Positions 12,589-29,114 of a DNA stretch of 37,688 nt are shown one piece after another; the stretch's first letter is position 1, and each line of letters starts with the position of its first letter. Position numbers and translations under genes: made by a program. Under the pieces are notes generated by a model, which saw only the letters and a program-made list of their open reading frames with translations, was not told the DNA's origin and searched no databases. The stretch spans positions 1-37,688 of the forward strand of contig JAHTBO010000016.1 in the NCBI GenBank assembly GCA_019166125.1, read 5' to 3'. This DNA comes from Alcaligenaceae bacterium CGII-47 (lineage in GTDB: Bacteria; Pseudomonadota; Gammaproteobacteria; Burkholderiales; Burkholderiaceae_B).

Positions 12589-12624
12589 CAATGAAAAGCG
12601 CCCCTTCGGGGGCGTTTTTCATTG
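12589..12624. terminator. Bidirectional terminator with UUCG loop
   Basis: A 16-pair stem (12589-12604 with 12609-12624, one G-T pair) closes on the tetraloop TTCG. The sequence has a T-rich arm on both strands, so it can end rpoC from the left and the CoA-transferase operon (minus strand, stop at 12647) from the right. It marks the left border of the catabolic block. Confidence 0.93.
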
Positions 12625-12646
12625 CTTGAAGGATCTGCGGATCGTA

Positions 12647-14227: not shown

Positions 14228-14236
14228 GGTGAGTTC

Positions 14237-15397
14237 TCAACGATGTACGTCAAAAAGGGAGGCGCCCTTTTTCATGGTGCTCTTGGCAATAATGCCGCGA
14301 TGAATCTCGCTTGTACCGTCAAAGATTCGGTAGACGCGGGCATCCCGGTAGTAGCGCTCGATAGAGAGCTCCTTGCAGAAACCCATCCCACCAAACACTT
14401 GGACGGCGCGATCCACCACTCGGCCTAGGGTCTCAGCGGCATACACCTTGACCATCGAGATCTGTTCGCGTGCGTCGGCACCTTGATCCAGCATCCAGGC
14501 AGCGTGATAGATCATCCAGCGGGTGGCGTTCACCTCGATGACGCTGTCAGCGAGCATTTGCTGCACCATCTGAAAGTCACCAATTCGTTGGCCAAATTGC
14601 TTGCGGTCGTTAACATAGCCGGTCATCATCTCTAGCACATGGGTGGCCTTGCCTAGCGCCCGAGCACCCACTTGGGCGAGGCGAACGACATTGAGTGCTC
14701 CCATGGCAAGTTTAAAGCCCTGGCCTTGTTCGCCCAGGAGGGCGATAGGCTCCAGATGTACATTGTCAAAGAACAGTTCCAGGTGGGGCGTGCCGCGTAG
14801 GCCCATCATCTGTTGGTTTTTGCCGATCGTAAAGCCAGGCAGGCCTTTGTCGACCATAAACATCGAGATCTCTTTTTCGCCCGTTTTCGCGGACACCAGG
14901 AAAAAGTCGCTCCATTCACCATCACTGATGAATTGCTTGCTGCCGTTGAGCACCCAGCCCCCGTCGGTCTGCTTGGCATGGGTTTTTATTCCCGCCGCGT
15001 CCGATCCTGCGCCGGCCTCTGTAATGGTAATCGCACAGGTGCGCGCCCCTTGCACAGCGGGCTTGAGCCAACGCTCGACCTGCACGCCCCGGCAATGGAG
15101 CAGCGGCTCATAGACATTACCGAAGGCGCGGCGAATCAGGATATCGGTGGTGTGCCCAAATTGCTCTTCGCACAGAATACGGTCAAGGTTGCTTAGGCCG
15201 CCTCCGCCCAATTCGACGGGCATATTCATGGCATACAGGCCTAGTGCCTTGGATTTCTCGTGGATGGCTTGCGCCTTGGACGGGTCGAGGAAGCCCTGGT
15301 TTTCAATCTCTTCTTCCAGGGGCTTGAGCTCTTCGGCGATAAAACGTCTCACCGTTTCAATCATCATTTTTTGTTCGTCGTTCAGGGAAAAATCCAT
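14237..15397 (-). CDS. Acyl-CoA dehydrogenase with Asp at the usual catalytic Glu
   Basis: A 386-residue flavoprotein of the acyl-CoA dehydrogenase family, which inserts an alpha-beta double bond in acyl-CoA and passes electrons to ETF. The order is a helical N-terminal domain, the FAD/substrate signature ITITEAGAGSD (about 123-133), the beta domain, and the C-terminal helices with RQFG-like KQFGQRIGDFQMVQQ and VFGGMGF. The segment that normally reads Y/F-E-G-T-S-E-I has IFDGTSEIHR, with Asp360 where short- and medium-chain enzymes have their base Glu. Some subfamilies naturally have Asp there, so activity is not excluded, but substrate class is uncertain. AAGGA precedes the ATG. It is paired with the CoA-transferase. 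Confidence 0.93.
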   Translation of the reverse strand: MDFSLNDEQKMMIETVRRFIAEELKPLEEEIENQGFLDPSKAQAIHEKSKALGLYAMNMPVELGGGGLSNLDRILCEEQFGHTTDILIRRAFGNVYEPLLHCRGVQVERWLKPAVQGARTCAITITEAGAGSDAAGIKTHAKQTDGGWVLNGSKQFISDGEWSDFFLVSAKTGEKEISMFMVDKGLPGFTIGKNQQMMGLRGTPHLELFFDNVHLEPIALLGEQGQGFKLAMGALNVVRLAQVGARALGKATHVLEMMTGYVNDRKQFGQRIGDFQMVQQMLADSVIEVNATRWMIYHAAWMLDQGADAREQISMVKVYAAETLGRVVDRAVQVFGGMGFCKELSIERYYRDARVYRIFDGTSEIHRGIIAKSTMKKGASLFDVHR

Positions 15398-15553
15398 ATT
15401 CCTTCTCTCTAAGAAATTGCGATCAACGGCAGCGTGCGGCTGCTAAATCAGTGCTGGCAGAAAAAGTGCGTTGATGGCTTACGCGCTGCTGAACCAGCGA
15501 GCCCCAAAGAAGAACGGTAGGCGAGACAGGATCTGGATACGTGTCGACATGGC
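15398..15553. other. Non-coding gap in left arm
   Basis: These 156 bases separate the TIM-barrel gene from the acyl-CoA dehydrogenase gene. Read on the minus strand they contain only the AGAAGGA ribosome-binding site of the latter. I see no clear promoter, terminator or small gene. A second promoter for the last two genes cannot be excluded. Confidence 0.5.
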
Positions 15554-16411
15554 TCAGCGTTCCAAGTATGGTCGGCTGGATTTCAGGCCTTGCGCCGCCC
15601 ACTGGCGTGGATCAAAATGCTTTTCACGTTCTAGATTTACGATTTCAATGCTGATCGGCAGATCGACGGGGAGGGCGTTGAACAGGCTTTCGAGCTCGAT
15701 ATTGCCTTCGCCGGGCTGCAAGCGTTCGCAGCGCGCTGTATGGATCATCTGCTCAGGAGTGAAATGGGTGCCAGCCTGCGCATCGCAGATCTGCGCGTAG
15801 TGGATCAGCGCTGGTGGAATGGCCCGGATATCATCGAGCGTCGTATGCGAGCGGGCAAAGTGCAATGCATCGACGATCACGCCGGCGTTGGCGGGCATGC
15901 CGGCGTTGCGTATGATGCGCAGCGCAGCGTTTGCGTTGGGCACCGCCGTCCACGGCATGAACTCCAGGTCGGCGCTGATTCCATAGGGTTTCAAAGCTTC
16001 GCATAAACGCGCATAGTTCTCGGTCAGGCGCGCTTCGTTTTTATCGTCACCTGCAATCAGGATGGTTTTGGCCTTTAGCGCTGCCCCGATCTCGTAGAGC
16101 GCGTCCCACGTATGGGGGTCGAACGACTCATTAATGCGGATGATTTCCAGATCAAATACGCCGACCCCGGTGTCGCGCAGTGCCGCAAGGGTATTTTTCA
16201 AAATGGCCGGCTCGCCGAGCATGGGTTGCACCGCCTTGTCAGGTGTGTTTGGCCACAGGCGCATGCCCACATAGGCATAGCCTTCGGCGGCAGCGATCTG
16301 TATGGCCTCGATGGGGGTGCAGCGATGCGCAGTGAGGTAGGACAGCGAGTACGCACGCACAGGCTTTTTCCCTACGGGCGCATCCGATGCCGCAGCAGAG
16401 CTCGATTTCAT
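15554..16411 (-). CDS. Xylose-isomerase-like TIM-barrel protein (isomerase/dehydratase)
   Basis: A 285-residue member of the AP-endonuclease-2 / xylose-isomerase-like barrel family, which includes inosose dehydratase (IolE), hydroxypyruvate isomerase and 3-dehydroshikimate dehydratases. Likely divalent-metal ligands are Glu150 (ADLEFMPW), Asp181 (VIVDALH), His204 (LIHYAQICD) and Glu256 (ISIEIVN), with spacing like that of known members. RLQPGEGNIELESLF at about 230-244 is the family's usual loop. Residue 152, where 3-dehydroshikimate dehydratases I recall have a catalytic His, is Met, so that activity is doubtful. It lies 10 bases after the NIPSNAP gene and in the same operon as a Gfo/Idh oxidoreductase, a common pairing in cyclitol and sugar-acid catabolism. 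The exact reaction is unknown. Confidence 0.85.
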   Translation of the reverse strand: MKSSSAAASDAPVGKKPVRAYSLSYLTAHRCTPIEAIQIAAAEGYAYVGMRLWPNTPDKAVQPMLGEPAILKNTLAALRDTGVGVFDLEIIRINESFDPHTWDALYEIGAALKAKTILIAGDDKNEARLTENYARLCEALKPYGISADLEFMPWTAVPNANAALRIIRNAGMPANAGVIVDALHFARSHTTLDDIRAIPPALIHYAQICDAQAGTHFTPEQMIHTARCERLQPGEGNIELESLFNALPVDLPISIEIVNLEREKHFDPRQWAAQGLKSSRPYLER

Positions 16412-16421
16412 TTCAAATACC

Positions 16422-17048
16422 TTATTTCATGGGCGAAATGGCCGTTGGCAGCGCGATCGTAGACACCATATTGGTGGTCAGATAGGCTGGCCCACCCTTC
16501 GGGGGCCAGATGCCTTGCGCGACGGCGTCGGCTCGGGTTTGGCTTCGCTCATCCAGACTTTTGTAGGCCCAAATATTGGTAAAACGTAGTGGACCGTCAA
16601 GTGCTGTCATCGCTAATACGCAGGGCGAGAGGCGTTCACGTGGCGGCACATACTGTTCCCACAGATCGATAGTTGGCTGCAAGCCGCCTGGCTTGATGCC
16701 GTAAGTGCGAATTTCATATACCGGGCCAGTGATGCCTGAATCCGCGCTGGGGCGAGCGGGCTTCATCCAGGCAAACCCCCGGTAGCTGTCTTGTTCCAGG
16801 GTTTGAAAAATATCCTTGCAGCCGAACGGATCGGCGCTCAGTTGGGTACGCAGACGCTCTGCCTGCAGCAAATCGAATGTTGCAAACCCGCGTAATACGA
16901 TCATCTGGTTAAGCACGCCGATATCGGTAGACCAGCAGCCGAGCAGTTCGCCTTTGGCCTCAGGTGCAGTGCAAAAGGCCTGGGCCTGCGTGGCCGCTTG
17001 TGCCGTGGTTCCAAAGGGGAGTGTCATTGTTGCAAGTTCGTAGAACAT
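16422..17048 (-). CDS. NIPSNAP-family protein, two domains
   Basis: A 208-residue protein with two ferredoxin-like alpha+beta repeats. The first begins MFYELATMTLPFG; the second begins VYEIRTYGIKPGGL at about residue 112, the NIPSNAP signature, and contains FTNIWAYKSLDER. Family members form alpha-beta-barrel dimers and are of mostly unknown function. AAGGAAG lies upstream, and the gene follows the KstD-like flavoprotein gene by 12 bases. A one-domain homologue (25948-26301) also directly follows a KstD-like gene, so a functional link with these flavoproteins is likely (inference). Confidence 0.85.
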   Translation of the reverse strand: MFYELATMTLPFGTTAQAATQAQAFCTAPEAKGELLGCWSTDIGVLNQMIVLRGFATFDLLQAERLRTQLSADPFGCKDIFQTLEQDSYRGFAWMKPARPSADSGITGPVYEIRTYGIKPGGLQPTIDLWEQYVPPRERLSPCVLAMTALDGPLRFTNIWAYKSLDERSQTRADAVAQGIWPPKGGPAYLTTNMVSTIALPTAISPMK

Positions 17049-17060
17049 GTGTGTCTTCCT

Positions 17061-18806
17061 TTATTGAGGGGCTTGTCCTGCAGCATGTTGTGCCGCGACA
17101 AAGCCAAAAGTCATGGCGGGTCCCAGGGTGATGCCACCACTGGGATAGTGACCGCCCATGATGCTCGTCATATCGTTGCCAGCCGCGTACAGACCGTCGA
17201 TAATCTGGCCCGCAGCGTCCAGGGCCTGGGCGTTGTGATTGACCTTCAGGCCAGCAAAGGTTCCCAGGCTGCCCATGACGATCTGGATAGCGTAATAGGG
17301 GCCTTGTTGTAGGGGTGCCATGCAGGGATTGGGATGTCCTGCGCTGATATCGCCCTGTATCCGGTTATAAGGAACGTCGCCTTTTTTAAAGTCCAAGTCC
17401 CGACCGCAGCGCGCCATGTCGTTGTACCGTGCTACCGTTGCTTGTAGCGTTGCCGCGTCGATATGACATGCTTGGGCCAAGCTATTGAGGGTAAGTCCGC
17501 GCTTCAGATAGCCTTTGCGTACCCATGATCCCAGCGGTATCGGGGCCGGTTTGACCGCCCCCAGCCCGTAGCGGCGGATGAATGCGTGATCACAGATCAG
17601 CCATGCGCGCGGTGGCTCGCCTGGCGGCGTTGCCCGCAATAATGCTTGCATGACATCATGATAAGAGTCCGCCTCGTTGGCGAAGCGCTTGCCGTGGGCG
17701 GTCACCGCAATCAGACCGGGTTTCGCACGGTCGATCAGGTGTGGAAAATAAATGGTACTGCCGTCACTGCGTGGGACGAGCGAAACCGGCGCCAGGGCGG
17801 CCGCCTGCTCTAAGTCGTCGGCAACTGTGGCGCCAACGACTTCGCCCAGTCGCAGGCCGTCGCCTGTATTGCTGCGCGGTGCCGCAGACCAGTGTTCGTG
17901 TCCGGTGGGAGCATGCGGCAGCAGGGCGCGCTTGCGTTCAGTGTCGTGGGGAAAGCCCCCACAGGCGAGCACCACGCCGTGACTGGCGTGGATGGTGGAC
18001 TGACCGCCTTCAGGGGTAGTAACTTTGGCGCCACATACACGCCCGTGCGCACGTAGTAGTTGTGTGGCGGGGCTGTTGGTGTGTAGTTCGACGCCCTTGT
18101 CCAAAGCGGACTTCATCAGTGCAGCGACCAGCGCATTCCCGTTGACCAGTCGCATGCCTCTGCGATAGAGGAGACGATCGCGCCAGTAGCGAAGCACCAG
18201 GCGGGTCACATACGAGAACGCCCGTATGGAATGCGTCGCGTCAAGAAAGTGGCGTACATCCCCGGATGCAATACCCATCCCGGCGAGTGTCGTCTCGGGG
18301 AGCTGCGGTTTAAGTGTCCGGATGTGCCGGCCCAAGAGACGGCCATCGAACGTGGCGGCACAGACCGAGCGGCCGCCGGTTCCAGCGTCCGGCGTATTGC
18401 CATGAAAGTCAGGGATGGCATTGCCATCGATAAAGCGCAAGGCGGTGTGCGAACGAAAGAACGCCACCATACGAGGTGCGTTCTCTAGAAAGCTGAGGAT
18501 CAGCGCTTCGTTGAAGTGATCGCCCAGTTCATGGCGTAGGTAAGACAAGGGTTTGTCGATGTCCTCGATGATCCCGGCCTCTTGGGCCAGCGGGTTGCGT
18601 GGAATCCACATCCAGCCGCCCGACCAGGCGGTGGTGCCACCGAGCAGGGGGCTTTTTTCCAGAACGATTACTTTCAGCCCCAAATGCGCGGCAGTGACGG
18701 CGGCCGACAAGCCGCCTGCTCCTGAACCAATGATCAGCAGATCGCAGTAAACATCCGATTGCGGCGAGGTGAGTGAAGCGGACATCAACGTTGAATCACT
18801 CTGCAT
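17061..18806 (-). CDS. KstD-like FAD-dependent dehydrogenase 1
   Basis: A 581-residue flavoprotein of the fumarate reductase / 3-ketosteroid delta1-dehydrogenase superfamily. The dinucleotide fold GSGAGG is at residues 27-32, followed by LEKSPLLGGTTAWSGG. Toward the C-terminus, NEADSYHD carries the tyrosine matching the active-site Tyr of KstD's NExxPY motif, and MGGHYPSGG carries the Tyr and Gly of KstD's YPxxG active site. The N-terminal PDYY-type motif of KstD reads PDFH here. Predicted chemistry is trans-removal of two hydrogens next to a ring ketone; the substrate is unknown. Start: ATG at 18806 overlaps the iclR stop by 11 bases; ATG at 18785 is the alternative, and neither has a strong ribosome-binding site. 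Confidence 0.9.
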   Translation of the reverse strand: MQSDSTLMSASLTSPQSDVYCDLLIIGSGAGGLSAAVTAAHLGLKVIVLEKSPLLGGTTAWSGGWMWIPRNPLAQEAGIIEDIDKPLSYLRHELGDHFNEALILSFLENAPRMVAFFRSHTALRFIDGNAIPDFHGNTPDAGTGGRSVCAATFDGRLLGRHIRTLKPQLPETTLAGMGIASGDVRHFLDATHSIRAFSYVTRLVLRYWRDRLLYRRGMRLVNGNALVAALMKSALDKGVELHTNSPATQLLRAHGRVCGAKVTTPEGGQSTIHASHGVVLACGGFPHDTERKRALLPHAPTGHEHWSAAPRSNTGDGLRLGEVVGATVADDLEQAAALAPVSLVPRSDGSTIYFPHLIDRAKPGLIAVTAHGKRFANEADSYHDVMQALLRATPPGEPPRAWLICDHAFIRRYGLGAVKPAPIPLGSWVRKGYLKRGLTLNSLAQACHIDAATLQATVARYNDMARCGRDLDFKKGDVPYNRIQGDISAGHPNPCMAPLQQGPYYAIQIVMGSLGTFAGLKVNHNAQALDAAGQIIDGLYAAGNDMTSIMGGHYPSGGITLGPAMTFGFVAAQHAAGQAPQ

Positions 18807-19626
18807 AAATAGGTTTCTTGGGTAGATGGACCGTACCGTTTTCGCCGACGCTAAAATTGAAAAACGGGGACGAGTTACTGATTGCCGCGAGTTGCGCGGC
18901 GGTGTCGAGCAGGGCGGGCGCCGCCGCTAACATACGCTCTAGCGTAAATCGTGCAGTGGGACCGGCGACAGTCAGCGCGCCAATCGCAGGCTTGCCCTTC
19001 AGGCGAATAGCGGCGCCGATCGCAGAGAGACCGGGACTGTAAGTGTCAATCGTGACGCTATAGCCGCGATTGCGCGTTTCTGCGATCGCTTCCTGCACCG
19101 CCTGCAAGGTGGCCGGTGCATTGGGCCCGAACTTTTCTGGGGAACCAATGCCCTGTTTGATAACCATGGCCAAGGCGTCTTCTTCGCTCATGGTGGCCAG
19201 CCAGGCCAGGCCTGATGATGAACACGAAAGGCGCGCCATGGTGCCCATATCTGGATCGTAACGCAAGCCTTGACGCGCGCCTTGCGCAAGCGCAACCCAG
19301 GTTAACTGCTCGCCATCTACGACGGAAAGACGAGTAAGCTCGCCTGAGGCTTCTGCCAACTGGTTGATCAGGGGTTGGGCGATATCGACAATGCCTGTTT
19401 TGCTTAGATAGGTCAATCCTATCGACACCAGTTTGGTAGATAACTGGTAGTCGCCACGGTCTCGTCTATGACGCACGTAGCCCAGGCGAGTCAGATCAGC
19501 GAGCAACCGGTGCACGGCGCTTTTTGGGATGTTCAGTTGTTCGGCAATCGTGGCCAGTTGCATACTTTCGCCCTGGTGCGACAGTAATTCCAGAATGCCC
19601 AAGGTTCGTTCAAGTACCCCATTCAT
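18796..19626 (-). CDS. IclR-family transcriptional regulator
   Basis: A 276-residue regulator. The N-terminal winged helix-turn-helix (about residues 1-65) contains LATIAEQLNIPKSAVHRLLADL. The C-terminal effector domain contains RLSCSSSGLAWLATM and the YSPGLSAIGAAIR stretch typical of IclR ligand pockets. IclR proteins often control aromatic and hydroaromatic catabolism (PcaR, PobR, QuiR-like). It is embedded in the left arm between the Gfo/Idh gene and the first KstD-like gene, so it probably controls its own arm. The palindrome TTGAACG-T-CGTTCAA at 20749-20763 is the best candidate operator (inference). Confidence 0.94.
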   Translation of the reverse strand: MNGVLERTLGILELLSHQGESMQLATIAEQLNIPKSAVHRLLADLTRLGYVRHRRDRGDYQLSTKLVSIGLTYLSKTGIVDIAQPLINQLAEASGELTRLSVVDGEQLTWVALAQGARQGLRYDPDMGTMARLSCSSSGLAWLATMSEEDALAMVIKQGIGSPEKFGPNAPATLQAVQEAIAETRNRGYSVTIDTYSPGLSAIGAAIRLKGKPAIGALTVAGPTARFTLERMLAAAPALLDTAAQLAAISNSSPFFNFSVGENGTVHLPKKPIYAE

Positions 19627-19641
19627 GTTAATCGTTTCCGT

Positions 19642-20691
19642 TTAATTGTTGAGTATGGCTATGCATGATACGGCTTGTTTCGTTTGTGCTGCTTCATGTA
19701 TGGCCAATGTGGCTTGTAGCGTGCGTAGACCATCGAGTGCGCTACAAAGCGGCGCGGCCTGGTCAGTGATCATCGCTGCAAAATGCTCGAGCTGACGCGT
19801 ATACGGGTCAGCGAGGTGAACCATGGTTTGCGAGCGTGTCATCTCGGCATGCCAGTGGCGTTCTCCGGGATAGTGCCACAGGGTGAGATCAGGTAGTGAA
19901 AGCGAGCCGTGCGTGCCGGTAATAAAGTGGGATTGCACCTGCTGGCGGGGGTATTGGTCTTGTTCGCCCGCGCAGAAGTCCCAGCACCAGGGGGCGGTGG
20001 CGGCGTCCGACACGATCACGGTACCTAGCGCGCCGCTGGTGAATCGCAGCAAGGCTGCTGCCGTGTCCTCGACATCCATGCCGCGTGCGGCGTGACTGTC
20101 CAGAGCTTGTACTGATTCGATTTCGCCAAGCAGAAAGCGCAGCATGTCGATATCGTGGATGAGGTTGATCAGCACCGGACCGCCGCCGGGCTGGCGACGC
20201 CATGCAACATCGAAGTAGCCGTCGGGCTTGCGGAAGGTTGCGAGTGCCGTCGCCGATACGATTTGCCCCAGCTGCCCGGACTGGATGATTTCTTTGGCCC
20301 GGTGAAGGATGGGATTATGGCGACGGTGGTGACCGATCAGCGCTGGCGTGTTCTGGCGTGCGGATGCATCCACAAGTTCTTGCGCCTCGGCCACGGTACT
20401 GGCGATGGGTTTTTCCACCAGAACCGGGATGCCGCGTGCCAGGCAGTCGCAGGCGACGGACACATGCGTTGCATTCGGTGTGGCCACGATCACGCCCTGC
20501 GGTTCGGTGCGCTCCAAGAGGTCTTGATGACTTGCAAACCACGGAATGTTCAAGTCTTGCGCTAGCGTCTTGCCTGCCGCAGACGGGTCGGCGATCGCGC
20601 TTAGAGCCAGTTGCGGATGACGTTGTATGCGGTCGATATGCGTCCGCCCGATGGCTCCCGCCCCGATCAGAGCTAGTTGAATTGCGCTCAT
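19642..20691 (-). CDS. Gfo/Idh/MocA-family NAD(P)-dependent oxidoreductase
   Basis: A 349-residue oxidoreductase with an N-terminal Rossmann fold (LIGAGAIGRTH, residues 8-18), the family motif VLVEKPIAS at about 90-98, and the catalytic segment GGGPVLINLIHDIDML at about 175-190 with the conserved His-Asp pair. Family members oxidise inositols, sugars and related polyols. The frame continues upstream to a TTG, but ATG at 20691 opens directly into the Rossmann motif and leaves room for a short leader from the promoter at 20735-20763. It is the first gene of the left arm, 15 bases before iclR. Likely role: oxidation of a ring hydroxyl (inference). Confidence 0.92.
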   Translation of the reverse strand: MSAIQLALIGAGAIGRTHIDRIQRHPQLALSAIADPSAAGKTLAQDLNIPWFASHQDLLERTEPQGVIVATPNATHVSVACDCLARGIPVLVEKPIASTVAEAQELVDASARQNTPALIGHHRRHNPILHRAKEIIQSGQLGQIVSATALATFRKPDGYFDVAWRRQPGGGPVLINLIHDIDMLRFLLGEIESVQALDSHAARGMDVEDTAAALLRFTSGALGTVIVSDAATAPWCWDFCAGEQDQYPRQQVQSHFITGTHGSLSLPDLTLWHYPGERHWHAEMTRSQTMVHLADPYTRQLEHFAAMITDQAAPLCSALDGLRTLQATLAIHEAAQTKQAVSCIAILNN

Positions 20692-20734
20692 TGTGCTTGT
20701 CTCGTCGTGTCCATTGTTATGAGATATTGATTTG

Positions 20735-20763
20735 ATTCTATATGAAAGTTGAACGTCGTTCAA
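20735..20763 (-). promoter_or_regulatory. Promoter of the left (minus) arm
   Basis: Read on the minus strand: -35 TTGAAC (20763-20758), 17-base spacer, -10 TAGAAT (20740-20735). This fits sigma-70 with 4/6 and 5/6 matches. Transcription would start near 20728, giving a leader of about 37 bases to the ATG at 20691. The -35 box is one arm of the palindrome at 20749-20763. Confidence 0.65.
20749..20763. promoter_or_regulatory. Palindromic operator candidate (IclR site)
   Basis: TTGAACG-T-CGTTCAA is a perfect 7+1+7 inverted repeat. It holds the -35 boxes of both divergent promoters and lies at the centre (20756) of a 43-base imperfect palindrome, 20735-20777, in which 16 of 21 positions match. 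A dimeric regulator bound here would block both promoters. A neighbouring repeat TTCAAT-T-ATTGAA (20759-20771) overlaps it. Assignment to the local IclR protein is inference. Confidence 0.7.
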
Positions 20764-20777
20764 TTATTGAATAGAAT
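20749..20777 (+). promoter_or_regulatory. Promoter of the right (plus) arm
   Basis: Plus strand: -35 TTGAAC (20749-20754), 17-base spacer, -10 TAGAAT (20772-20777), identical in both boxes and in spacing to the opposite promoter. Transcription would start near 20784, about 45 bases before the first gene. A second possible -10, TATGAT at 20792-20797, has a less good spacing of 19 bases to TTGAAT at 20767-20772. Confidence 0.65.
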
Positions 20778-20829
20778 TCTGTTTTTCGTAGTATGATTCA
20801 ACCCTATACCAAATATAAAGCCGAGAGAC

Positions 20830-21624
20830 ATGATCAAAACCCTAAGTGGTGCCTTGCGTGTTCATTTCATCGTTGGGCACCCGATCGCCCAGGTAAAGTC
20901 GCCTGCGGGCGTAACCCAGGCCTTTATGGATCAGGGGCAACATGCGATCTGTATTCCTGCTGACGTAGAACCATCAAATTTGACCGCATGGCTCGCTGGG
21001 GTGTCGGTTGCCCGCAACGTTGACGGGATCATCGTGACCGTTCCGCATAAGTTCGCCTGTTTTGAATTGTGTGCAACGACCTCTGCGCGTTCATCTTTTT
21101 TACATACGGTGAATACGATGCGCCGCAATCCCGATGGTGCGTGGCATGGCGATATGTTTGATGGCCTGGGTTTTGTGGATGCGGTGCGTGCCGCGGGGTA
21201 CCAGCCACGAGGCAAACGTGCTTTGCTGGTGGGCGCTGGCGGGGCAGGCTCGGCGATTGCCCATGCTTTGGTTGAGGCGGGGGTGGCGCAGTTGGCGATT
21301 CACGACGAGGATGTCATGCGGCGCGACGTGCTCATTGCGCGCTTGCGTGGCTTGGGCCAGGCCACATTGCAAGCGGGCAGTGCCGATCCGTCGGGCAGCG
21401 ATATTGTTATTAACGCAACGCCGATGGGCATGGCGCCTGGCGATCCGTACCCGGTTGATCCCGCACATCTAAGCGCCGACATGTTTGTGGGCTGTGTCAT
21501 TACGGCACCTGCCGTTTCACCCTTCGTGCAGGCAGCGCGCGAAAAAGGGTGCATGACGATCACGGGAAGCGAGATGTTTGGCTGTGTGCGTGACCGTATG
21601 CTCAAGTTTCTAACCGAGGTCTGA
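20830..21624 (+). CDS. Shikimate/quinate dehydrogenase-like protein (AroE family)
   Basis: A 264-residue AroE-family protein. The catalytic pair is present: Lys74 in VTVPHK and Asp111 in DMFDGLGF. Asn95 in TVNT, the NADP-fold loop GAGGAG (135-140) and INATPMGM are also kept. Two substrate-contact regions differ from biosynthetic AroE: the GxPIxHSxSP motif is GHPIAQVKSP, with the first of its two serines changed to Val, and the C-terminal GMLxxQ region reads SEMFGCVRD without the Gln. Catalysis of a related but different substrate is therefore likely. GAGAG precedes the ATG. It is the first gene of the right arm, 1 base ahead of a KstD-like flavoprotein gene, so it is catabolic by context. Confidence 0.9.
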   Translation: MIKTLSGALRVHFIVGHPIAQVKSPAGVTQAFMDQGQHAICIPADVEPSNLTAWLAGVSVARNVDGIIVTVPHKFACFELCATTSARSSFLHTVNTMRRNPDGAWHGDMFDGLGFVDAVRAAGYQPRGKRALLVGAGGAGSAIAHALVEAGVAQLAIHDEDVMRRDVLIARLRGLGQATLQAGSADPSGSDIVINATPMGMAPGDPYPVDPAHLSADMFVGCVITAPAVSPFVQAAREKGCMTITGSEMFGCVRDRMLKFLTEV

Positions 21625-21625
21625 T

Positions 21626-23368
21626 ATGCACCTGAGTCGCCAAGGCATGCAGGGAATTATTGACAATGATCCATTTGATGTGATTGTGGTCGGGGCGGGC
21701 GGTGCGGGTTTATCAGCCGCCTTGTTTGCCGCGATTGCGGGCGCACGCGTTCTGTTGGTGGAGAGCACCCAATATGTTGGCGGTACCACCGCCTGGTCGG
21801 CCGGCACGACATGGGTGCCGGGAACGCATCATGCGGCGACCGTGAATGCGCAGGATACGCTGGCTGCCGCCGCAACCTATCTTGATCAGGCGGTTGGTGA
21901 CTATGCACCAGGCGCGATGCGGCAGGCTTTTTTGGATAACGGTGCTGAGGCGGTCGCGCATATCGAAGCGCACTCCGAGCTTAGGTATCGGCCTTATCCA
22001 AAGCACCCAGACTACATTTCGAATCTTGCAGGCGCTACGCTGAATGGGCGTGCCCTGGAGCCGCTACCGTTTGATGGCCGATTGCTCGGTGAGCTGTTTG
22101 GGCTGATACGCCCGCCTATTCCGGAATTCACGGTGCTTGGCGGCATGATGGTTGATCGCACCGACATTAACCATCTGCTGGCGCTGACCAAATCATGGGG
22201 TTCCTTCAAGTATTCGATGCGTATCCTATTGCGTCACTTGGCCGATCGGCTACGCCACCCCCGAGGTACGCGCCTCGTGATGGGAAACGCACTGGTCGCG
22301 CGCTTGTTGTATTCCCTGTCGCAGCATGACCGGGTGACCCTGGCGCTCAATACCTCTGTGCAGGCTTTTCGGGAAGGCGCCAACGGCATCGAGGGCTTGA
22401 GCCTGCTTAGCGGCGAATCGGTGCGGGAAGTTCATGCCCTGGCGGGTGTGGTGTTGGCGAGTGGCGGCTTAAACCGCAATCCGGATTTCCGCAAGCAGTT
22501 TTTACCCCATATCGAGATGGACTGGTGCCCGGCGGCACCGGGTCATACGGGACAGATGCAAGAACTGGCCCTGGCTTTAGGCGCACAGCACAGCACGAGC
22601 GATATGAGCCCTGCATTTTTTGCGCCGGTGTCGATTCGCAAGCGCAAGAATGACAGTCTGGCGGTATTCCCGCATTTTGTGATGGATCGCGCCAAGCCGG
22701 GTATGGTCACAGTGAATCAGGCGGGCGAGCGTTTCCTCAACGAGAGCACGTCTTATCATTTATTTGGACTGGGGATGCAGGCAGCGGATCGGATCACGCC
22801 GTCTATCCCCGCCTATCTCGTATGTGACGCCGCAGCCTTGCGTAAATATGGCATAGGCATGGTGCGTCCGGGGGGCAAAGGGCTGGAGCCATTTTTGGCT
22901 GATGGCTATTTGACCCGCGGCGATACGCTCGATGAGCTGGCTTCACAGCTGGATATGGATGCAGTTGGGCTTAAGCGCAGTGTTGAGCAAATCAATGCGT
23001 ATGCCAAGACGGGTATCGATCCGGATTTTGCGCGCGGTACGACAGCCTATGAGCAGAATCTGGGCGACCCCAATTGGCCAGGCAAAAATCCGGATATTGG
23101 CCCCTTGGAGCAAGCACCGTTTTATGCAGTGAAGCTCTACCCGGGCGATATCGGTGCTTCCACGGGCCTGGTGACGGATCCGCACGCTCGTGTGATGCGC
23201 GGGCAGGCGCCGATTCCTGGGCTTTACGCCGTTGGAAATGACATGCAATCAATCATGGGCGGCGTCTATCCAGCCCCGGGCATCACGATCGGCCCCGGCT
23301 TGGTATTTGCTTATGTGGCCGTACGCGATGCGATGCATAGGCGCGATGCATCGGCCTTGGCGCGTTAG
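21626..23368 (+). CDS. KstD-like FAD-dependent dehydrogenase 2
   Basis: A 580-residue flavoprotein of the KstD/fumarate-reductase superfamily. The FAD fold GAGGAG is at residues 23-28, followed by GGTTAWSAGTTWVPG. The KstD-type catalytic positions are visible as HPDY (N-terminal half), NESTSYH and MGGVYPAPG. It is similar in layout to the flavoproteins at 17061 and 24248. Predicted to desaturate a ring ketone; the substrate is unknown and the steroid label should not be taken literally. It starts 1 base after the AroE-like stop, so the two are translationally coupled. The stop overlaps a possible GTG of the next frame, but the SDR gene has a better start downstream. Confidence 0.91.
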   Translation: MHLSRQGMQGIIDNDPFDVIVVGAGGAGLSAALFAAIAGARVLLVESTQYVGGTTAWSAGTTWVPGTHHAATVNAQDTLAAAATYLDQAVGDYAPGAMRQAFLDNGAEAVAHIEAHSELRYRPYPKHPDYISNLAGATLNGRALEPLPFDGRLLGELFGLIRPPIPEFTVLGGMMVDRTDINHLLALTKSWGSFKYSMRILLRHLADRLRHPRGTRLVMGNALVARLLYSLSQHDRVTLALNTSVQAFREGANGIEGLSLLSGESVREVHALAGVVLASGGLNRNPDFRKQFLPHIEMDWCPAAPGHTGQMQELALALGAQHSTSDMSPAFFAPVSIRKRKNDSLAVFPHFVMDRAKPGMVTVNQAGERFLNESTSYHLFGLGMQAADRITPSIPAYLVCDAAALRKYGIGMVRPGGKGLEPFLADGYLTRGDTLDELASQLDMDAVGLKRSVEQINAYAKTGIDPDFARGTTAYEQNLGDPNWPGKNPDIGPLEQAPFYAVKLYPGDIGASTGLVTDPHARVMRGQAPIPGLYAVGNDMQSIMGGVYPAPGITIGPGLVFAYVAVRDAMHRRDASALAR

Positions 23369-23415
23369 TGTCACGACCCGAATTTTCCATGAGTAAGAAT
23401 AGAAGGAGACGGCAG

Positions 23416-24228
23416 ATGGATGATGAGCGGCATTGGCTGGGTTTGAGCGGCAAAGTCTGCGTGGTGACGGGGGCGGCCAGTGGTATTGGCGCAGCGGTCG
23501 CCTCCAGCCTGGCTGAGGCGGGCGCAAGGGTGGCTTTGTTGGATCGCGATGTCGCAGGGTGTGAGCGCGCTGCGCAGCAGTTGAATGCACAGGGGGCGAG
23601 CGCCCTTGGCATGGCGTGTGATGTCACGGATGAGCAGCAGGTTTTGAGCGCCGCGGCGAGCGTTCAATCGCAGCTTGGCCCATGCCATGCCTTGATCAAT
23701 ATTGCTGGTGTCTTGCGGGCTGGTTCACTTGAAGAGGTGAGTATCGAGGACTGGAATACCGTGCTGTCAGTCAATTTGACGGGTTATCTGCTGTGTGCGC
23801 GCGCCTTCTTGTCACAAATGGTCGGGCGCGGTGGTGGCGCATTGGTGCATGTCGCTTCGATTTCCGCCAACTTTCCGCAGACCAATAGCGGTGCCTACAG
23901 CGCAAGCAAGGCCGGGGTGTTGTTGTTGTCTCGGCAGATGGCTGTGGAATGGGGCTCGAAAGGCATTCGCAGCAATGTGATTTGTCCGGGCATGATTCGT
24001 ACGGCCTTATCGGCGAAGTTCTATGAGGAACCTGGCCTTGAGGCCAGGCGCGCCCTAATGACCGGCAGTCGCCGGATTGGTGAGCCGCAGGACATTGCGG
24101 ATGTCGCTTTGTTTTTGGCCAGCCCGCGTGCAGCGTACATCAATGGCGCCGAAGTGGCCGTAGATGGCGCCATGTCCTCGATGCTGATGGATATGGTGCC
24201 GCGCCCTGGGTACAACGAAACCGTCTGA
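23416..24228 (+). CDS. Short-chain dehydrogenase/reductase 1
   Basis: A 270-residue classical SDR. Cofactor motif TGAASGIG near residue 20, NIAG (the NNAG position), catalytic Ser-Tyr-Lys in VASISANFP and AYSASKAG, then CPGMIRTAL. The frame is open back to a GTG overlapping the previous stop, but AAGGAG at 23403-23408, 7 bases before the ATG at 23416, decides the start. It would oxidise a secondary alcohol or reduce a ketone. The C-terminal extension SSMLMDMVPRPGYNETV resembles the tail of the SDR at 31975-32796, which suggests the two are paralogues. Confidence 0.92.
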   Translation: MDDERHWLGLSGKVCVVTGAASGIGAAVASSLAEAGARVALLDRDVAGCERAAQQLNAQGASALGMACDVTDEQQVLSAAASVQSQLGPCHALINIAGVLRAGSLEEVSIEDWNTVLSVNLTGYLLCARAFLSQMVGRGGGALVHVASISANFPQTNSGAYSASKAGVLLLSRQMAVEWGSKGIRSNVICPGMIRTALSAKFYEEPGLEARRALMTGSRRIGEPQDIADVALFLASPRAAYINGAEVAVDGAMSSMLMDMVPRPGYNETV

Positions 24229-24247
24229 ATCTGAAGGAGTTGGAAGC

Positions 24248-25951
24248 ATGAGTAAGACTGAATACGATTTGGTGGTGGTTGGCTCAGGCGCCGCAGGTCT
24301 GGTGTGCGCTATCACCGCGAAAAAGCGCGGCTTGAGTGTCGTTGTGTTGGAGAAGGAGCCCGTGTTTGGCGGGACGACTGCGCTCTCGGGGGGCGTGCTG
24401 TGGGTGCCGCTCAATGTGCACGGTCGCAAGCAAAATCCGAAGGATTCAGCCCAGGCCGTCCATACCTACCTGAAGCATGAAACGGGATCCATGTTCGATG
24501 AGGCGACGACACAGGCCTTTATCGAAAACGGCCCGAAGATGGTGGATTTTCTTGAGCGCGAAACCGAGATGAAATTTGTGCCGACCTTGTACCCGGATTA
24601 CCACCCAGACGTCCCGGGTGGTGTCGATATTGGTCGTTCGATTCTTGCCGCACCCTACGATATACGCGGCCTAGGCAAGGATATGCCACGGCTCAAGCTG
24701 CCGCTCAAGACCATCACCTTCATTGGCATGATGTTCAACTCTTCGAATGCTGATCTAAAGCATTTTTTCAACGTTACCAAGTCCTTGACTTCATTTATCT
24801 ATGTGACCAAGCGATTAATGAGTCACATCAAGGAGCTGGCCCTTTATCGTCGGGCAATCAATGTGACCAGCGGAAACGCGCTGGCCGCGCGTCTGGCCAA
24901 ATCTGCCTTGGATCTGGGTATACCGATCCTTACGGATACGCCTGCCAACCAGGTGCTGGTAGAAGGCGAGCGAGTAATTGGTGTGTTGACCCGGAACAAG
25001 GACGGCGAGCGCCGGTTCGTGGGGCGCCGCGGTGTGGTCTTGGCGTGTGGCGGCTTTCCGCACGACGACAAGCGCCTTGCGCTAGCGTATCCCCATGTTC
25101 GGCGTGGACATCAGCACTTGTCGCCCACGCCAGTGGCCAACACAGGCGATGGCGTCAATATGGCTGAGTCGGTGGGTGCGGTTGTCGATATTAGGTTTGC
25201 TGATAGCGCGGCATGGATGCCTGTCAGTCGGGTCGATTTTGGCAAGGGGGAGTTTGGTGTGTTTCCCCATTTGCTTGACCGCTACAAGCCTGGCGTGATC
25301 GGTGTGCTGATGGATGGCCGGCGCTTTACCAACGAGTCCAATTCTTATCATGACGTGGGCGCTGCGATGACCCGGGCGTGCCAAGACATGGCCGAGACGG
25401 CGATGTGGCTGGTTTGCGATAAAACCGCACTGCAAAAGTATGGCCTGGGCTATGTCAAGCCCGCGCCGCTGCCGTTTGGCCGCTTGATCAAGAACGGCTA
25501 TTTGCTAGAAGGCGCCACGCTCGCCGATCTGGCGAAAAAAGCAGGGATCAATGCGGATGGTCTGGAGAAAACAGTGCGTGACTATAACGAATACGCGCTC
25601 AAAGGTGAAGATCCGGCATTTCACCGTGGCAAGACCGCCTTTAATCGTTACCTGGCCGATGCCGAAAATACGCCGAATCCTTGTGTGGCGCCCATCGTCA
25701 AAGGGCCTTTTTACGCTGTGAAATTAGTGATGGGCGATCTGGGAACATTTGATGGGATTGAAACCAGTGTGGTGGGCGAGGTGCTTAGGCGTGATGGGAC
25801 GGCGATACAGGGTCTCTACGCAGTAGGCAACGATCGCGCCAGCATGATGGGCGGCAACTATCCCGCAGCTGGCATCACACATGGCCCGAATATGACTTTT
25901 GGATATCTCACTGCCAACCATATAGCAGATCAAACCGGAGCGACAACGTGA
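24248..25951 (+). CDS. KstD-like FAD-dependent dehydrogenase 3
   Basis: A 567-residue flavoprotein of the KstD/fumarate-reductase superfamily. The FAD fold GSGAAG is at residues 12-17, then LEKEPVFGGTTALSGG. KstD-type active-site positions are present as YPDYHPD, NESNSYHDV and MGGNYPAAG. AAGGAG lies 9 bases before the ATG. The stop overlaps the NIPSNAP gene (GTGA), so the pair is coupled, as is the KstD-like 1 / NIPSNAP pair in the left arm. Likely a ring desaturase of a step different from the other two (inference). Confidence 0.91.
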   Translation: MSKTEYDLVVVGSGAAGLVCAITAKKRGLSVVVLEKEPVFGGTTALSGGVLWVPLNVHGRKQNPKDSAQAVHTYLKHETGSMFDEATTQAFIENGPKMVDFLERETEMKFVPTLYPDYHPDVPGGVDIGRSILAAPYDIRGLGKDMPRLKLPLKTITFIGMMFNSSNADLKHFFNVTKSLTSFIYVTKRLMSHIKELALYRRAINVTSGNALAARLAKSALDLGIPILTDTPANQVLVEGERVIGVLTRNKDGERRFVGRRGVVLACGGFPHDDKRLALAYPHVRRGHQHLSPTPVANTGDGVNMAESVGAVVDIRFADSAAWMPVSRVDFGKGEFGVFPHLLDRYKPGVIGVLMDGRRFTNESNSYHDVGAAMTRACQDMAETAMWLVCDKTALQKYGLGYVKPAPLPFGRLIKNGYLLEGATLADLAKKAGINADGLEKTVRDYNEYALKGEDPAFHRGKTAFNRYLADAENTPNPCVAPIVKGPFYAVKLVMGDLGTFDGIETSVVGEVLRRDGTAIQGLYAVGNDRASMMGGNYPAAGITHGPNMTFGYLTANHIADQTGATT

Positions 25952-26301
25952 GTGCAATGACTCAATCAACCGCCAAGCCGCTCGTCGATCATCGGATCTA
26001 CACGATTGCATTACGCAAAATGCCCGAGTTCCTTGAGGTCTTCAACCGTCTGGCCATGCCAATTTTGATGGAGACCTTGGGTCACCCGATAGGCTTTTAT
26101 ACCAGCCTTGTCGGTCCGCAGAATCAGTTCATACATCTGTGGGCCTATGACGACCTGGCGGATTACGAACGGCGTAGCCGCATGCGCGATCAGCATCCGG
26201 ATTTTGGTGCCTATCTGCAGGCCTCCGGTCATCTTATTACGCAGCAGGAAACGCGGTTGATTCAGGCGACGGCCATGCCTGGTTGGACGGGCGTGCAGTA
26301 G
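25948..26301 (+). CDS. NIPSNAP-family protein, one domain
   Basis: A 117-residue single-domain NIPSNAP protein. DHRIYTIALRKMPEFLEVFNRLA is the family's first strand-helix unit (from about residue 13) and FIHLWAYDDLADYERR the second. It starts at GTG 25948 within the flavoprotein stop (4-base overlap); CCGGAG at 25935-25940 gives good spacing. ATG at 25957 is a less likely start. It is half the length of the left-arm NIPSNAP protein. Probably an accessory or small enzyme acting with the flavoprotein; function unknown. Confidence 0.85.
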   Translation: MSAMTQSTAKPLVDHRIYTIALRKMPEFLEVFNRLAMPILMETLGHPIGFYTSLVGPQNQFIHLWAYDDLADYERRSRMRDQHPDFGAYLQASGHLITQQETRLIQATAMPGWTGVQ

Positions 26302-26364
26302 ACACCTGGGACATCGATAGAAATTATAGGGCCCCGCCTTGATCGGAGGCCCAGGAGACAAGCT

Positions 26365-27210
26365 TTGAATACACAATCTGACACGGATGTCGGCGCAGCG
26401 GATGATCGTGCAAGCATGCCAGTCGTGCTGATCACCGGAGCCGCAGAGGGTATCGGTTGGGCGTGCGCCGAGTTGATGGCGGCCCGTGGGTGGCGGGTGG
26501 CTTTGGCAGACTTGCGTGCCCCAACGGTTGCGCAACGAGCCGAGCAATTGGGCGATGACCTGCACTTGGGCATAGGCTGCGACGTGACCGACCACGACAG
26601 TGTGCGCCGTGCGGTACTGGCCATCGTCGCCCGCTACGGTCGTATCGATGCCTTGGTCAATAACGCAGGTATTGGCGATCAGACGGTGCCCACATTAGAG
26701 CAAACTGCCGAGGCATTTGATCAGGTGCTGGCGGTACACCTGCGCGGCGCCTTTCTGGTCAGCCAGGCCGTCTTGGCACAGATGCGCCAGCAGGCACCTG
26801 ATGCCTACGGAAACCGTGGCGCCATCGTCAATATTGGCTCTATCGCCAGTTTTGGGGGAATTCCAGGACGCAATGCGTATAGCGCGGCAAAGGCTGGCGT
26901 ATTGGGGATGACGCGGGCGATGGCGATCGAATGGGCTCGCGCAGGCGTGCGTATCAACGCGGTAGCGCCGGGCTATGTCGCAACAGCATTGGTCACGCAG
27001 CTTGCCAAAAATGGGGCCGTAGATACGGCGGCAATTGCACGTCGCACACCGTTGGGCCGTATGGCAGAGCCGGTGGAAATCGCCGAGGTGATCACCTTTC
27101 TAGCCAGTCCCTCATCGAGTTACGTCACGGGTGCCACGCTGTCTGCAGATGGTGGATGGAGCGTGCTTGGAGCGCCTGAGGCGGCATTGACAGCAATGGA
27201 TGGGGGCTAA
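26365..27210 (+). CDS. Short-chain dehydrogenase/reductase 2
   Basis: A 281-residue classical SDR with ITGAAEGIGW (about 21-30), NNAG, catalytic Ser in IGSIASFGG, Tyr-Lys in AYSAAKAG, and AVAPGYVAT. I chose TTG at 26365 because AGGAGA at 26353-26358 is correctly spaced; the first ATG, 16 codons later, would leave only six residues before the cofactor motif and has no such site. It differs from the other two SDRs in lacking the CPGMIRT segment, so it probably serves another step. It stands between the catabolic genes and the transporter. Confidence 0.91.
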   Translation: MNTQSDTDVGAADDRASMPVVLITGAAEGIGWACAELMAARGWRVALADLRAPTVAQRAEQLGDDLHLGIGCDVTDHDSVRRAVLAIVARYGRIDALVNNAGIGDQTVPTLEQTAEAFDQVLAVHLRGAFLVSQAVLAQMRQQAPDAYGNRGAIVNIGSIASFGGIPGRNAYSAAKAGVLGMTRAMAIEWARAGVRINAVAPGYVATALVTQLAKNGAVDTAAIARRTPLGRMAEPVEIAEVITFLASPSSSYVTGATLSADGGWSVLGAPEAALTAMDGG

Positions 27211-27243
27211 ATTGATCAAAAATTTCAATAGGGAGAGCAGATA

Positions 27244-28095
27244 ATGCTGACGATCAACTTGTTTAACGGCCTGGTTTATGGCGCATTGCTGATTGTGATG
27301 TGCGCTGGGCTGGCATTGATATTTGGCTTGCGTCGGGTGGTCAATTTTGCTCACGGCTCGTTATATATGCTGGGCGCTTATTTGGGCTACACGATTGCGT
27401 TGTACAGCAATTTCTGGGTGGCCATGATTGTCGTGCCCATCATCATGGCCATCTTGGGCATGGTGCTGGACCGGTACTGCTTTCGCCTCTTGCAGGATCG
27501 CGACCCCCTGACGGTCGTGCTCGTGACGTTTGGCCTGCTCCTTATTCTTGAGGACCTTGTGCAGACCATCTGGGGCACGAGTAACTTCTCGCTGCCCATG
27601 CCCGAAGCGCTGAATTTCTCTGTAGAGATTTTTGGCACGACGGTGCCGACATACCGAATCGGCGTCATTTTCTTTGGTGCTGCCGTAGCGATCGGATTGA
27701 GCTTGTGGCTGCGTTATTCCAAGGTGGGATTATTCGTTCGCGCGGCCAGTACCGACCCTGTCACGACCGCAATGCAGGGTGTCCACACGGATCGTTTGAG
27801 TGCCGGCGTGGTTGGCCTGGGGACGGCCCTGGCGGGATGGGCCGGCGTGGTTGCCGCGCCTTTCCTGTCCTTGTCGCCCTCGATGAGCGCAGACGTATTG
27901 ATCGATTCTTTTGTGGTCGTAGTGATCGGTGGGCTGGGCTCTTTGACGGGGGCATTCGTCGCCGCCGTGTTCCTGGGTATGTTGCAGGCAGTTGGCGCGG
28001 TGTATTTGCCCGAAGTGTCTGTGCTGCTGCCGTTTGTGTTCATGGTGGCGATCTTAATCTGGAGACCGGCTGGCCTGGCTGGTAGCCGCACCTAA
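27244..28095 (+). CDS. Branched-chain amino acid-type ABC transporter permease (LivH-like)
   Basis: A 283-residue polytopic membrane protein of the LivH family. It shows the family start LFNGLVYGALLIVMCAGLAL, the motif VNFAHGSLYMLGAY at about residues 34-47, and GGLGSLTGAFVAA near 230-242. About eight hydrophobic segments. GGGAGAG precedes the ATG. It is the first gene of a complete Liv-type importer. Such importers carry not only amino acids but also aromatic and alicyclic acids; the operon context favours the latter (inference). Confidence 0.93.
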   Translation: MLTINLFNGLVYGALLIVMCAGLALIFGLRRVVNFAHGSLYMLGAYLGYTIALYSNFWVAMIVVPIIMAILGMVLDRYCFRLLQDRDPLTVVLVTFGLLLILEDLVQTIWGTSNFSLPMPEALNFSVEIFGTTVPTYRIGVIFFGAAVAIGLSLWLRYSKVGLFVRAASTDPVTTAMQGVHTDRLSAGVVGLGTALAGWAGVVAAPFLSLSPSMSADVLIDSFVVVVIGGLGSLTGAFVAAVFLGMLQAVGAVYLPEVSVLLPFVFMVAILIWRPAGLAGSRT

Positions 28096-28113
28096 GCCTT
28101 GAGGGTGAATCAT

Positions 28114-29112
28114 ATGAGTGTTTTCCGGATAAGTATTTCTACCATCGTTGCAATATTGGCGGGCATTGTCGTGATGCTGATGGTCAGCTCGCACATCGTG
28201 CTGTCTTTATTGACGCAGGCCACCATCTATGCGGTGTTTGCCGTCGGTCTGGGTATCTTGTTGCGCCAGAACGGGCATGCGAGCTTCGGTCATGCCTTGT
28301 TTTTTGGCCTGGCTGGCTACGCAATGGCCATCATCTTGCGTCTGGATCTCATGCCCGCCGAGGCTGCGGTTGTGGTGACCTTGCTTGGGATGGGTGTGTT
28401 TGCATTCCTGATCGGCCTGGTGATGGTGCGTGTCCCGGGTATCGCCTTCAGTATGCTGACCTTGGCGGTCGGACAGATGGGCTACCTGACTATTTCACGC
28501 TCTCGTGGCTGGACGGGCGGTGCGGACGGAATGGGTATCGATTGGCCTGCCAGATTGTTCGGCTTCACTCAGGCGCAATTGCTCCAGCCCAGCACCTGGT
28601 TTTTGATTTGCTGGGTGGTGTTGGTCGTGGTCATTGCATTGTTGACGCTGCTATTGCGCGGCCGATTTGGTGCTGTTACCGAAGCGGTACGCGATAACGA
28701 GGAGCGTGCGCGTTTCATCGGAATCTCCACGGTGTTGCCACGAGCAGTGATCTTTGCCTTGTCGGCCATGGTCACGGGTCTGTCGGGGGTATTGGCCGGC
28801 TTCAATACCGGCTTCATCTCGCCCGAGAGCTTGCACTGGAGCCTATCGGGCATGATGCTGATGATGGTCATCGTCGGTGGCTTCAAGGTCTTGTGGGGGC
28901 CAGCGCTGGGCGCAGCGGCGTATTTCCTGCTCAAGGATGTATTGGGTGAGTTTGCGTCCCATTGGATGGCAATTTTCGGTGTCGTGCTGATCACGGTCAT
29001 TGTGTTCTCTCCGACTGGAATCGCCGGGGCTTTGCAGCGCTTGCTCGGCGCCAACAACAATGCCAAACCGCAACATGCCATTGGCATAAATGAACACTCC
29101 ACAGAGGCATAG
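28114..29112 (+). CDS. Branched-chain amino acid-type ABC transporter permease (LivM-like)
   Basis: A 332-residue permease of the LivM family, partner of the LivH-like protein. Features are GHASFGHALFFGLAGYA at about 49-65, the coupling-helix region AVRDNEERARFIGIS, and GGFKVLWGPALGA. Multiple hydrophobic helices span the protein. A TTG five codons upstream is in frame, but GAGGGTG at 28101-28107, 7 bases before ATG 28114, fixes the start. It ends 2 bases before the ATPase gene. Confidence 0.93.
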   Translation: MSVFRISISTIVAILAGIVVMLMVSSHIVLSLLTQATIYAVFAVGLGILLRQNGHASFGHALFFGLAGYAMAIILRLDLMPAEAAVVVTLLGMGVFAFLIGLVMVRVPGIAFSMLTLAVGQMGYLTISRSRGWTGGADGMGIDWPARLFGFTQAQLLQPSTWFLICWVVLVVVIALLTLLLRGRFGAVTEAVRDNEERARFIGISTVLPRAVIFALSAMVTGLSGVLAGFNTGFISPESLHWSLSGMMLMMVIVGGFKVLWGPALGAAAYFLLKDVLGEFASHWMAIFGVVLITVIVFSPTGIAGALQRLLGANNNAKPQHAIGINEHSTEA

Positions 29113-29114
29113 AT

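Follow-up and report, generated by a model that had tools for sequence, protein, structure and literature searches.

How are two divergent sets of catabolic genes, seven to the left and eleven to the right, controlled from the single short gap that separates them? The question is raised by a stretch of 37,688 nucleotides (nt) from Alcaligenaceae bacterium CGII-47 (contig JAHTBO010000016.1), hereafter the window, in which an imperfect inverted repeat at 20735-20777 occupies such a gap. The element is probably the shared control region of the cluster, forming an auto-regulated repressor switch in which a tandem operator for an IclR-family regulator, encoded in the left arm, would lie over two promoters. 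This reading is based on the sequence itself, on its rarity, on the conservation of a motif and of its tandem spacing, and on the tie of that motif to iclR homologues and to a recurring gene set. The control features are given below; scores out of ten count matches to the fixed bases of the 15-bp motif TKGAAnnnnnTTCMA, and scores out of twelve count matches to the promoter consensus.

20749-20763, no strand assigned: op1, the predicted primary IclR-type operator; 10/10, first in the matrix ranking, holding both -35 hexamers.
20767-20781, no strand assigned: op2, a second, weaker candidate operator box, TTGAATAGAATTCTG; 8/10, 18 bp from op1, over the right -10 box.
20732-20746, no strand assigned: op0, a doubtful third box, TTGATTCTATATGAA; 7/10, 17 bp to the left of op1, over the left -10 box.
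20749-20777, plus strand: putative sigma-70-type promoter of the right arm, TTGAAC-17-TAGAAT; 9/12.
20735-20763, minus strand: putative sigma-70-type promoter of the left arm, TTGAAC-17-TAGAAT; 9/12.
20767-20794: weaker alternative promoter for the right arm, TTGAAT-16-TAGTAT; 8/12, overlapping op2.

Direct reading of the plus strand gives TTGAAC at 20749-20754, a 17-nt spacer and TAGAAT at 20772-20777; on the minus strand, TTGAAC at 20763-20758 is followed, after another 17 nt, by TAGAAT at 20740-20735. Together, the two -35 boxes supply the arms of a 15-bp palindrome without mismatch, TTGAACG-T-CGTTCAA (20749-20763, centre 20756), and the whole 43-mer is symmetric at 16 of 21 positions (inverted repeat I1, 76%). 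These letters are exactly those described in an earlier note on this DNA. Symmetry of 16/21 is not rare, being reached by two odd-centred and one even-centred 43-mers in the 37.7-kb window. The perfect centre is rarer, and the remarkable part is its combination with two matching, equally spaced -10 boxes. When the central 15-mer was kept fixed and its flanks were shuffled base by base (20,000 trials), outer arms symmetric at 9 of 14 positions appeared in 0.5% of the shuffles, and a -10-like hexamer (at least 5/6, with A and T in place) stood at a 17-nt spacer on both sides in 1 of 20,000, or in 0.12% if spacers of 16-18 nt were allowed. Each strand of the 3.45-Mb genome holds one exact match to TTGAAC-N17-TAGAAT, both being this element, and TKGAAYNNNRTTCMA occurs solely here (reversed-pattern control: 0). 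With the 15-mer of the earlier note and up to two mismatches, the same genome yielded 7 sites against 6 for the reversed control, so that the perfect site alone stands out, and no wider regulon was seen in that search.

The surrounding gap, 138 nt from the Gfo/Idh gene's ATG at 20691 (minus strand) to the aroE-like gene's ATG at 20830 (plus strand), has a GC content of 34%, against 57% for the window. In a DNA-level comparison of the gap with 101 genomes, no other genome's match spans 20735-20777, the matches being confined to short segments within or near the genes on either side. Only the tRNA was matched in Rfam, which gave no lead to an RNA element.

What is conserved, as far as upstream sequences can tell, is a predicted operator, TKGAAnnnnnTTCMA, and not the exact letters TTGAACGnCGTTCAA. 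Homologues of the IclR protein were sought in 399 genomes of the order (9 matches at E <= 1e-50, own genome included), in 64 genomes of the family of G097, one of the genomes with a similar cluster (7 at E <= 1e-60), and in 250 genomes of its own family (18 at E <= 1e-65, own included). These sets overlap, and more homologues came from a plasmid search and from a contig scan with IclR, the latter giving 2 loci only. Upstreams were retained for tblastn matches at E <= 1e-40, leaving out matches starting more than 10 residues from the IclR N-terminus, upstreams shorter than 150 nt and those with identical last 60 nt. This left 49, including that of the window's own iclR, which is not a first gene (best score 7/10) and was excluded afterwards; the other 48 were reduced to 36 non-redundant upstreams by shared 8-mers. 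The consensus was set by eye after some of the relatives' upstreams had been viewed, and was sought up to 250 nt upstream of each iclR homologue.

The palindrome recurs there with a score of at least 9/10 in 33 of the 36 upstreams and at least 8/10 in 35 (two of the three below 9 score 8, the third lower), while dinucleotide shuffles contain a site of at least 9/10 in a mean of 1.18 of 36, with a maximum of 3. A matrix made from the relatives' sites, in which the window's site was not used, gives 20749 the highest rank in the window (18.1 bits). The upstreams of the four other IclR paralogues in the genome reach at most 8/10. Thus, op1 is very probably the operator of the cluster's own IclR. 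The palindrome had been expected to be conserved in relatives, which is correct for the 15-bp motif (33/36 relatives, and 4/4 clusters of the same gene order) and incorrect for the exact letters. The recurrence also supports the earlier proposal that one operator covers both -35 boxes, with feedback on iclR likely.

Two side observations concern the variation of this motif. In Marinobacterium lacunae (L014 9868-9902), two boxes of the GTGAAA...TTTCAA type, a different letter and spacing variant, stand 20 bp apart before a homologous iclR. By eye and without counting, homologues with the recognition helix QLRSGCHRTL tend to go with TTGAA arms and those with IPRSAxHRLL with TGGAA arms; the link is loose, because the window's protein, with IPKSAVHRLL, goes with TTGAA arms.

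Does the operator consist of op1 alone? A single regulator dimer had been proposed, and the boxes argue instead for a tandem array, on which two, perhaps three, dimers are likely to bind. A score of at least 8 at an offset of 17 or 18 bp, as for op2, is found in 0.55% of the flank shuffles; op0 is weak, 2.7% of the shuffles doing equally well. Among the 36 relatives, with offsets of 14-25 bp compared, a second box of at least 7/10 lies 17 or 18 bp from the best site in 28 (10 at 17 and 18 at 18). Six relatives have one at 19, none scoring 8 or more, and the remaining counts are one at 20, two at 23, two at 24 and none at 14, 15, 16, 21, 22 or 25. With op2 centred 18 bp from op1, the pair falls within the 18-22 bp, centre to centre, of tandem palindromes. 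By the relatives' matrix, op2 ranks fourth in the window (11.5 bits), behind two coding-sequence sites. The latter, at 24724 and 21062, were set aside as probable products of chance or coding constraint; a site like that at 24724 is present in G007, a genome of the same genus (12308 of its contig).

The boxes also follow the gene set. Four clusters, in G097, G461, G462 and Diaphorobacter sp. HDW4B, have iclR, a flavin adenine dinucleotide (FAD) enzyme gene, a NIPSNAP gene and, in three of them, a triosephosphate isomerase (TIM) barrel gene, divergent from an aroE-like and a FAD enzyme gene; in G462, the contig ends within NIPSNAP. Their proteins are 52-75% identical to the window's, and iclR itself comes first, with no gfo between. 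Nine gaps, picked by gene neighbourhood and including the window's, were inspected. The divergent gap of all four same-order clusters contains a 10/10 box with a partner at 18 bp: two perfect boxes in G461, and in the other three one perfect box whose partner scores 7 or 8. In G455, genes for an acyl-coenzyme A (acyl-CoA) dehydrogenase and a CoA-transferase, similar to the left arm's, diverge from iclR, and the boxes there are a perfect one and a 7/10 partner; on the Ramlibacter contig L015, iclR is divergent from a FAD enzyme gene, with boxes of 9 and 7. The cluster is rearranged in G007, where tandem boxes 18 bp apart occupy two divergent gaps (L012 14863-14983 and 18636-18757), one between gfo and a binding-protein gene and the other between two FAD enzyme genes, with a third box in one gap. 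These boxes are the top five matrix hits in bases 20001-32061 of the contig, the best in bases 1-20000 scoring lower (10.2 bits). The contig also encodes an IclR, 40% identical, which was found after the count of 36 upstreams and is not part of it.

On this basis, a mechanism can be proposed. Two sigma-70-type promoters would point outward from the shared control region, their -35 boxes forming the halves of the main operator of the left arm's IclR, and op2, 18 bp rightward, would cover the right -10 box. Without ligand, IclR would bind as two dimers or a tetramer (perhaps as three dimers) and block RNA polymerase at both promoters, which would also limit its own synthesis. Release would come from a ligand, probably a pathway substrate or intermediate, and both arms would be switched on together, with one polymerase loading at a time because the promoters overlap. 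The presumed transcription starts lie near 20728 and 20784, so that the operator would be centred about 28 bp upstream of both. Such a position, on both -35 boxes and with op2 across the right -10 box, is consistent with steric repression that a ligand relieves. Binding, the sign of the effect (repression and not activation), the start sites, polymerase competition and the ligand are all inferred from the anatomy of the element and from the habits of the IclR family.

In favour of the promoters, -35 and -10 hexamers at a spacing within 16-18 nt occur on both strands, each pair with 9/12, and the two interlocked promoters are the only ones to reach 9/12 within the gap. They are also the sole interlocked pair among the 9 forward and 11 reverse promoter-like sites in the window. 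Several points weigh against the reading as a whole. The letters of the -35 boxes coincide with the operator half-site TTGAAY, of which they may be a by-product. Promoter matches of 9/12 are not clearly commoner cluster-wide than in shuffles (15 against 10.8, standard deviation 4.1). In the four same-order orthologues, no two opposed 9/12 promoters were found in the window's register, the candidates, where recognisable, lying in other registers or being weaker. Among the 28 tandem pairs with offsets of 17 or 18 bp, to which this test was confined, -10-like hexamers show no enrichment in the matching register (6 pairs against a permuted mean of 5.2). The offset of 17-18 bp reaches the published range of 18-22 only at its lowest value, and op2 is weak, being outscored by the two coding-sequence sites. 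The 33 of 36 is not an independent count, since the consensus was picked after relatives had been viewed, and the shuffles control for chance and not for that choice. Finally, the IclR of G007 shares only 40% identity, and the region before its gene holds no box scoring more than 7/10, so that the link between this IclR and the boxes rests on proximity.

Because the promoter register is unmatched in the orthologues and unenriched in the 28 pairs, the exact interlock of the putative promoters is a local arrangement, and it is the predicted operator that is conserved. As a general design, the exact -35 interlock is not upheld. Sharing of the -35 region does recur in G097, in another register: its candidates, TTGGAA-18-TAAAAT on the minus strand (9/12) and TTCCAA-17-TAAAAT on the plus strand (8/12), take their -35 from one shared set of six base pairs, read in opposite directions, and G461 keeps the plus-strand part. 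In HDW4B, the perfect box supplies the -35 and the neighbouring box the -10 of an 8/12 candidate, TGGAAT-18-AATAAT. Two 9/12 candidates of G007, TTGAAT-17-TATTAT and TTGAAT-18-TATATT, likewise span adjacent boxes, one holding the -35 and the other the -10, an arrangement shared with the window's right arm, and in one G007 gap opposed candidates (9 and 8/12) overlap still more closely.

Among the alternatives, the one that survives best, possible though on the whole unlikely, accepts the operator and takes the -35 boxes for mere by-products of its half-sites. There would then be no interlock, and the promoters would lie elsewhere in the gap, for example at 20767-20794, where the 8/12 alternative overlaps op2. 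The double nature of TTGAAY, at once half-site and -35-like, favours this explanation, as do the unenriched register in relatives and the aroE-side candidate of G097 and G461, TTCCAA-17-TAAAAT, in its other register. It does not account for the two -10-like boxes at matching spacing, found in 0.005% to 0.12% of the flank shuffles, of which the left-side box is not explained by the operator alone, nor for the fact that no other promoter in the gap reaches 9/12.

Going the opposite way, the element may be a more compact array, in which each core promoter box doubles as operator: the -35 boxes would be the arms of op1, each -10 box would lie within a flanking box (firmly in op2, doubtfully in op0), and two or three IclR dimers would set both promoters. 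An offset of 18 bp does correspond to a 17-nt spacer. The pattern of -35 and -10 in adjacent boxes holds for the window and the two G007 candidates and makes no rule across the 28 pairs, and this version is fairly doubtful. A general role of the tandem step in creating a promoter found no support in the same pairs (4 on one strand, 3 on the other and 6 on either, against permuted means of 2.8, 3.1 and 5.2).

It is improbable that IclR acts at this element as an activator or dual regulator, as reported for PcaR. PcaR reportedly activates when bound over -35 and -10 elements, and -35 boxes matching at only 4/6 would suit activation. At about -28 from either presumed start, op1 would nevertheless sit at the heart of the core promoter, and binding there would most simply occlude it; the IclR repressor site is said to overlap the aceBAK promoter. 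That the operator, whose binding by IclR is predicted from sequence, belongs to another regulator of the genome is very improbable, given that 33 of 36 relatives have the motif upstream of their homologue of this same IclR and that the other IclR paralogues found in the genome, 24-27% identical, have no site above 8/10 upstream.

The preferred reading, a repressor switch governed by the cluster's own IclR, joins known features, namely an IclR tandem operator and overlapping divergent promoters, and the element is a known kind of control region. A 15-bp palindromic IclR box, TGGAAATNATTTCCA, is presumably that of E. coli. It is listed in PMC13273656 and resembles op1 in length, in its TGGAA/TTCCA arms and in its reported overlap with a promoter; the window's site differs in lying over two opposite promoters at once and in having a tandem partner. 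In a survey of IclR-family motifs (Suvorova and Gelfand 2021, PMC8222616), two motif types are distinguished, with GAA...TTC-type palindromes, and tandem sites with 18-22 nt between centres are reported for 94 orthologous groups and explained by tetramer binding; the family is known there to bind as dimers or tetramers. The window's element is like the group 2 operators of that survey, with GAA...TTC arms upstream of metabolic operons and tandem palindromes. It is unlike them in its halves, TTGAACG/CGTTCAA here against TGRAACA/TGTTYCA, so that it matches the group 2 motif TGRAACAN1-2TGTTYCA at 10 of 14 consensus positions (hand count), with the core GAAC/GTTC kept and one outer base and the innermost base of each half differing, and in its offset, 18 bp here and 17-18 bp in the subgroup against 18-22, mainly 19-21, in the survey.

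Overlapping divergent promoters under one regulator, with its motif over the core promoters, are also described for Pc/Pr of plasmid pLS20 (PMC4207663). That system differs in three respects: its regulator is of the Xre type, there is looping to a further operator, and the effects on its two promoters are opposite. No such distant operator was recognised at the window's element. Bidirectional promoters of E. coli (PMC12825309) resemble the element in their pseudo-symmetric DNA and in the divergent transcription and exclusion of one polymerase by the other that are proposed for it. They share a -10 box, whereas here the -35 regions are shared and the -10 boxes, at 20735-20740 and 20772-20777, are separate.

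The genes that would be served by this control region are the following.

12647-20691, minus strand: left arm, seven genes, with a 156-nt gap at 15398-15553.
19642-20691, minus strand: Gfo/Idh/MocA oxidoreductase (Pfam), first gene of the left arm.
18796-19626, minus strand: IclR-family regulator, second gene of the left arm; HTH_IclR and IclR_C above the Pfam cut-offs.
20830-31825, plus strand: right arm, eleven genes.
20830-21624, plus strand: shikimate-dehydrogenase-like (aroE-like), first gene of the right arm; Pfam Shikimate_dh_N above cut-off.

Gene order and domains agree with the seven-gene arm, iclR second, and the eleven-gene arm noted earlier. The left arm runs gfo, iclR, a FAD enzyme of the 3-ketosteroid-dehydrogenase type, NIPSNAP, TIM barrel, acyl-CoA dehydrogenase and CoA-transferase, the start of gfo being set at the ATG at 20691, just ahead of the family match, and not at the upstream TTG of the open reading frame. 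The right arm runs aroE-like, FAD enzyme, short-chain dehydrogenase/reductase (SDR), FAD enzyme, NIPSNAP, SDR, four ATP-binding cassette (ABC) transporter genes of the branched-chain type and a binding protein; another SDR lies beyond it at 31975, after a gap of 149 nt. Each arm is read from gene order as one putative operon. A terminator-like site follows the left arm at 12614-12599, such sites being no commoner in the region than in shuffles. The regulator is an IclR-family member by both domains (HTH_IclR 58.5 bits, cut-off 22; IclR_C 77.7 bits, cut-off 24) and the sole regulator among the cluster proteins scanned for domains; the four other IclR homologues of the genome (E <= 1e-10) are 24-27% identical to it. 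As its gene is 15 nt from gfo and overlaps the next gene by 11 nt, iclR is probably co-transcribed with the left arm. For the aroE-like protein, every NCBIfam shikimate dehydrogenase model scores below its cut-off.

The cluster (12567-33626) is placed between rpoC, ending at 12566, and rpsL, at 33627, which are thus about 21 kb apart; a type II dehydroquinase gene (32843-33346, minus strand) also lies in this interval. Of nine other genomes in the genus, three (G003, G004 and G008) have rpsL about 2-3 kb past the matched rpoC end, and in the other six it is not within the 3-6 kb fetched beyond rpoC. The spot therefore seems variable. The three FAD enzymes resemble 3-ketosteroid or 4-oxocyclohexanecarboxylate dehydrogenases, with most NCBIfam equivalog cut-offs unmet, and the two NIPSNAP proteins adjoin aroE-like, dehydroquinase and, weakly, dehydroshikimate-dehydratase-like genes. 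This set (15554-16411, 16422-18806, 20830-23368, 24248-26301 and 32843-33346) suggests the catabolism of an alicyclic acid.

The analysis thus offers an operator candidate for an IclR regulator, tied to a catabolic cluster with an aroE-like gene, three flavoproteins of the 3-ketosteroid-dehydrogenase type, NIPSNAP proteins and an ABC transporter, the core of which recurs, besides this genome, in Diaphorobacter and in three genomes belonging to another family of the order. If the more compact array were true, promoter and operator letters would be unable to change independently, and the 17-18 bp step would put a -35-like half-site and a -10 box in promoter register. For the IclR family, this tandem step is a small refinement of the published spacing; for the organism, the operator would allow the regulon and, through induction, the substrate to be found.
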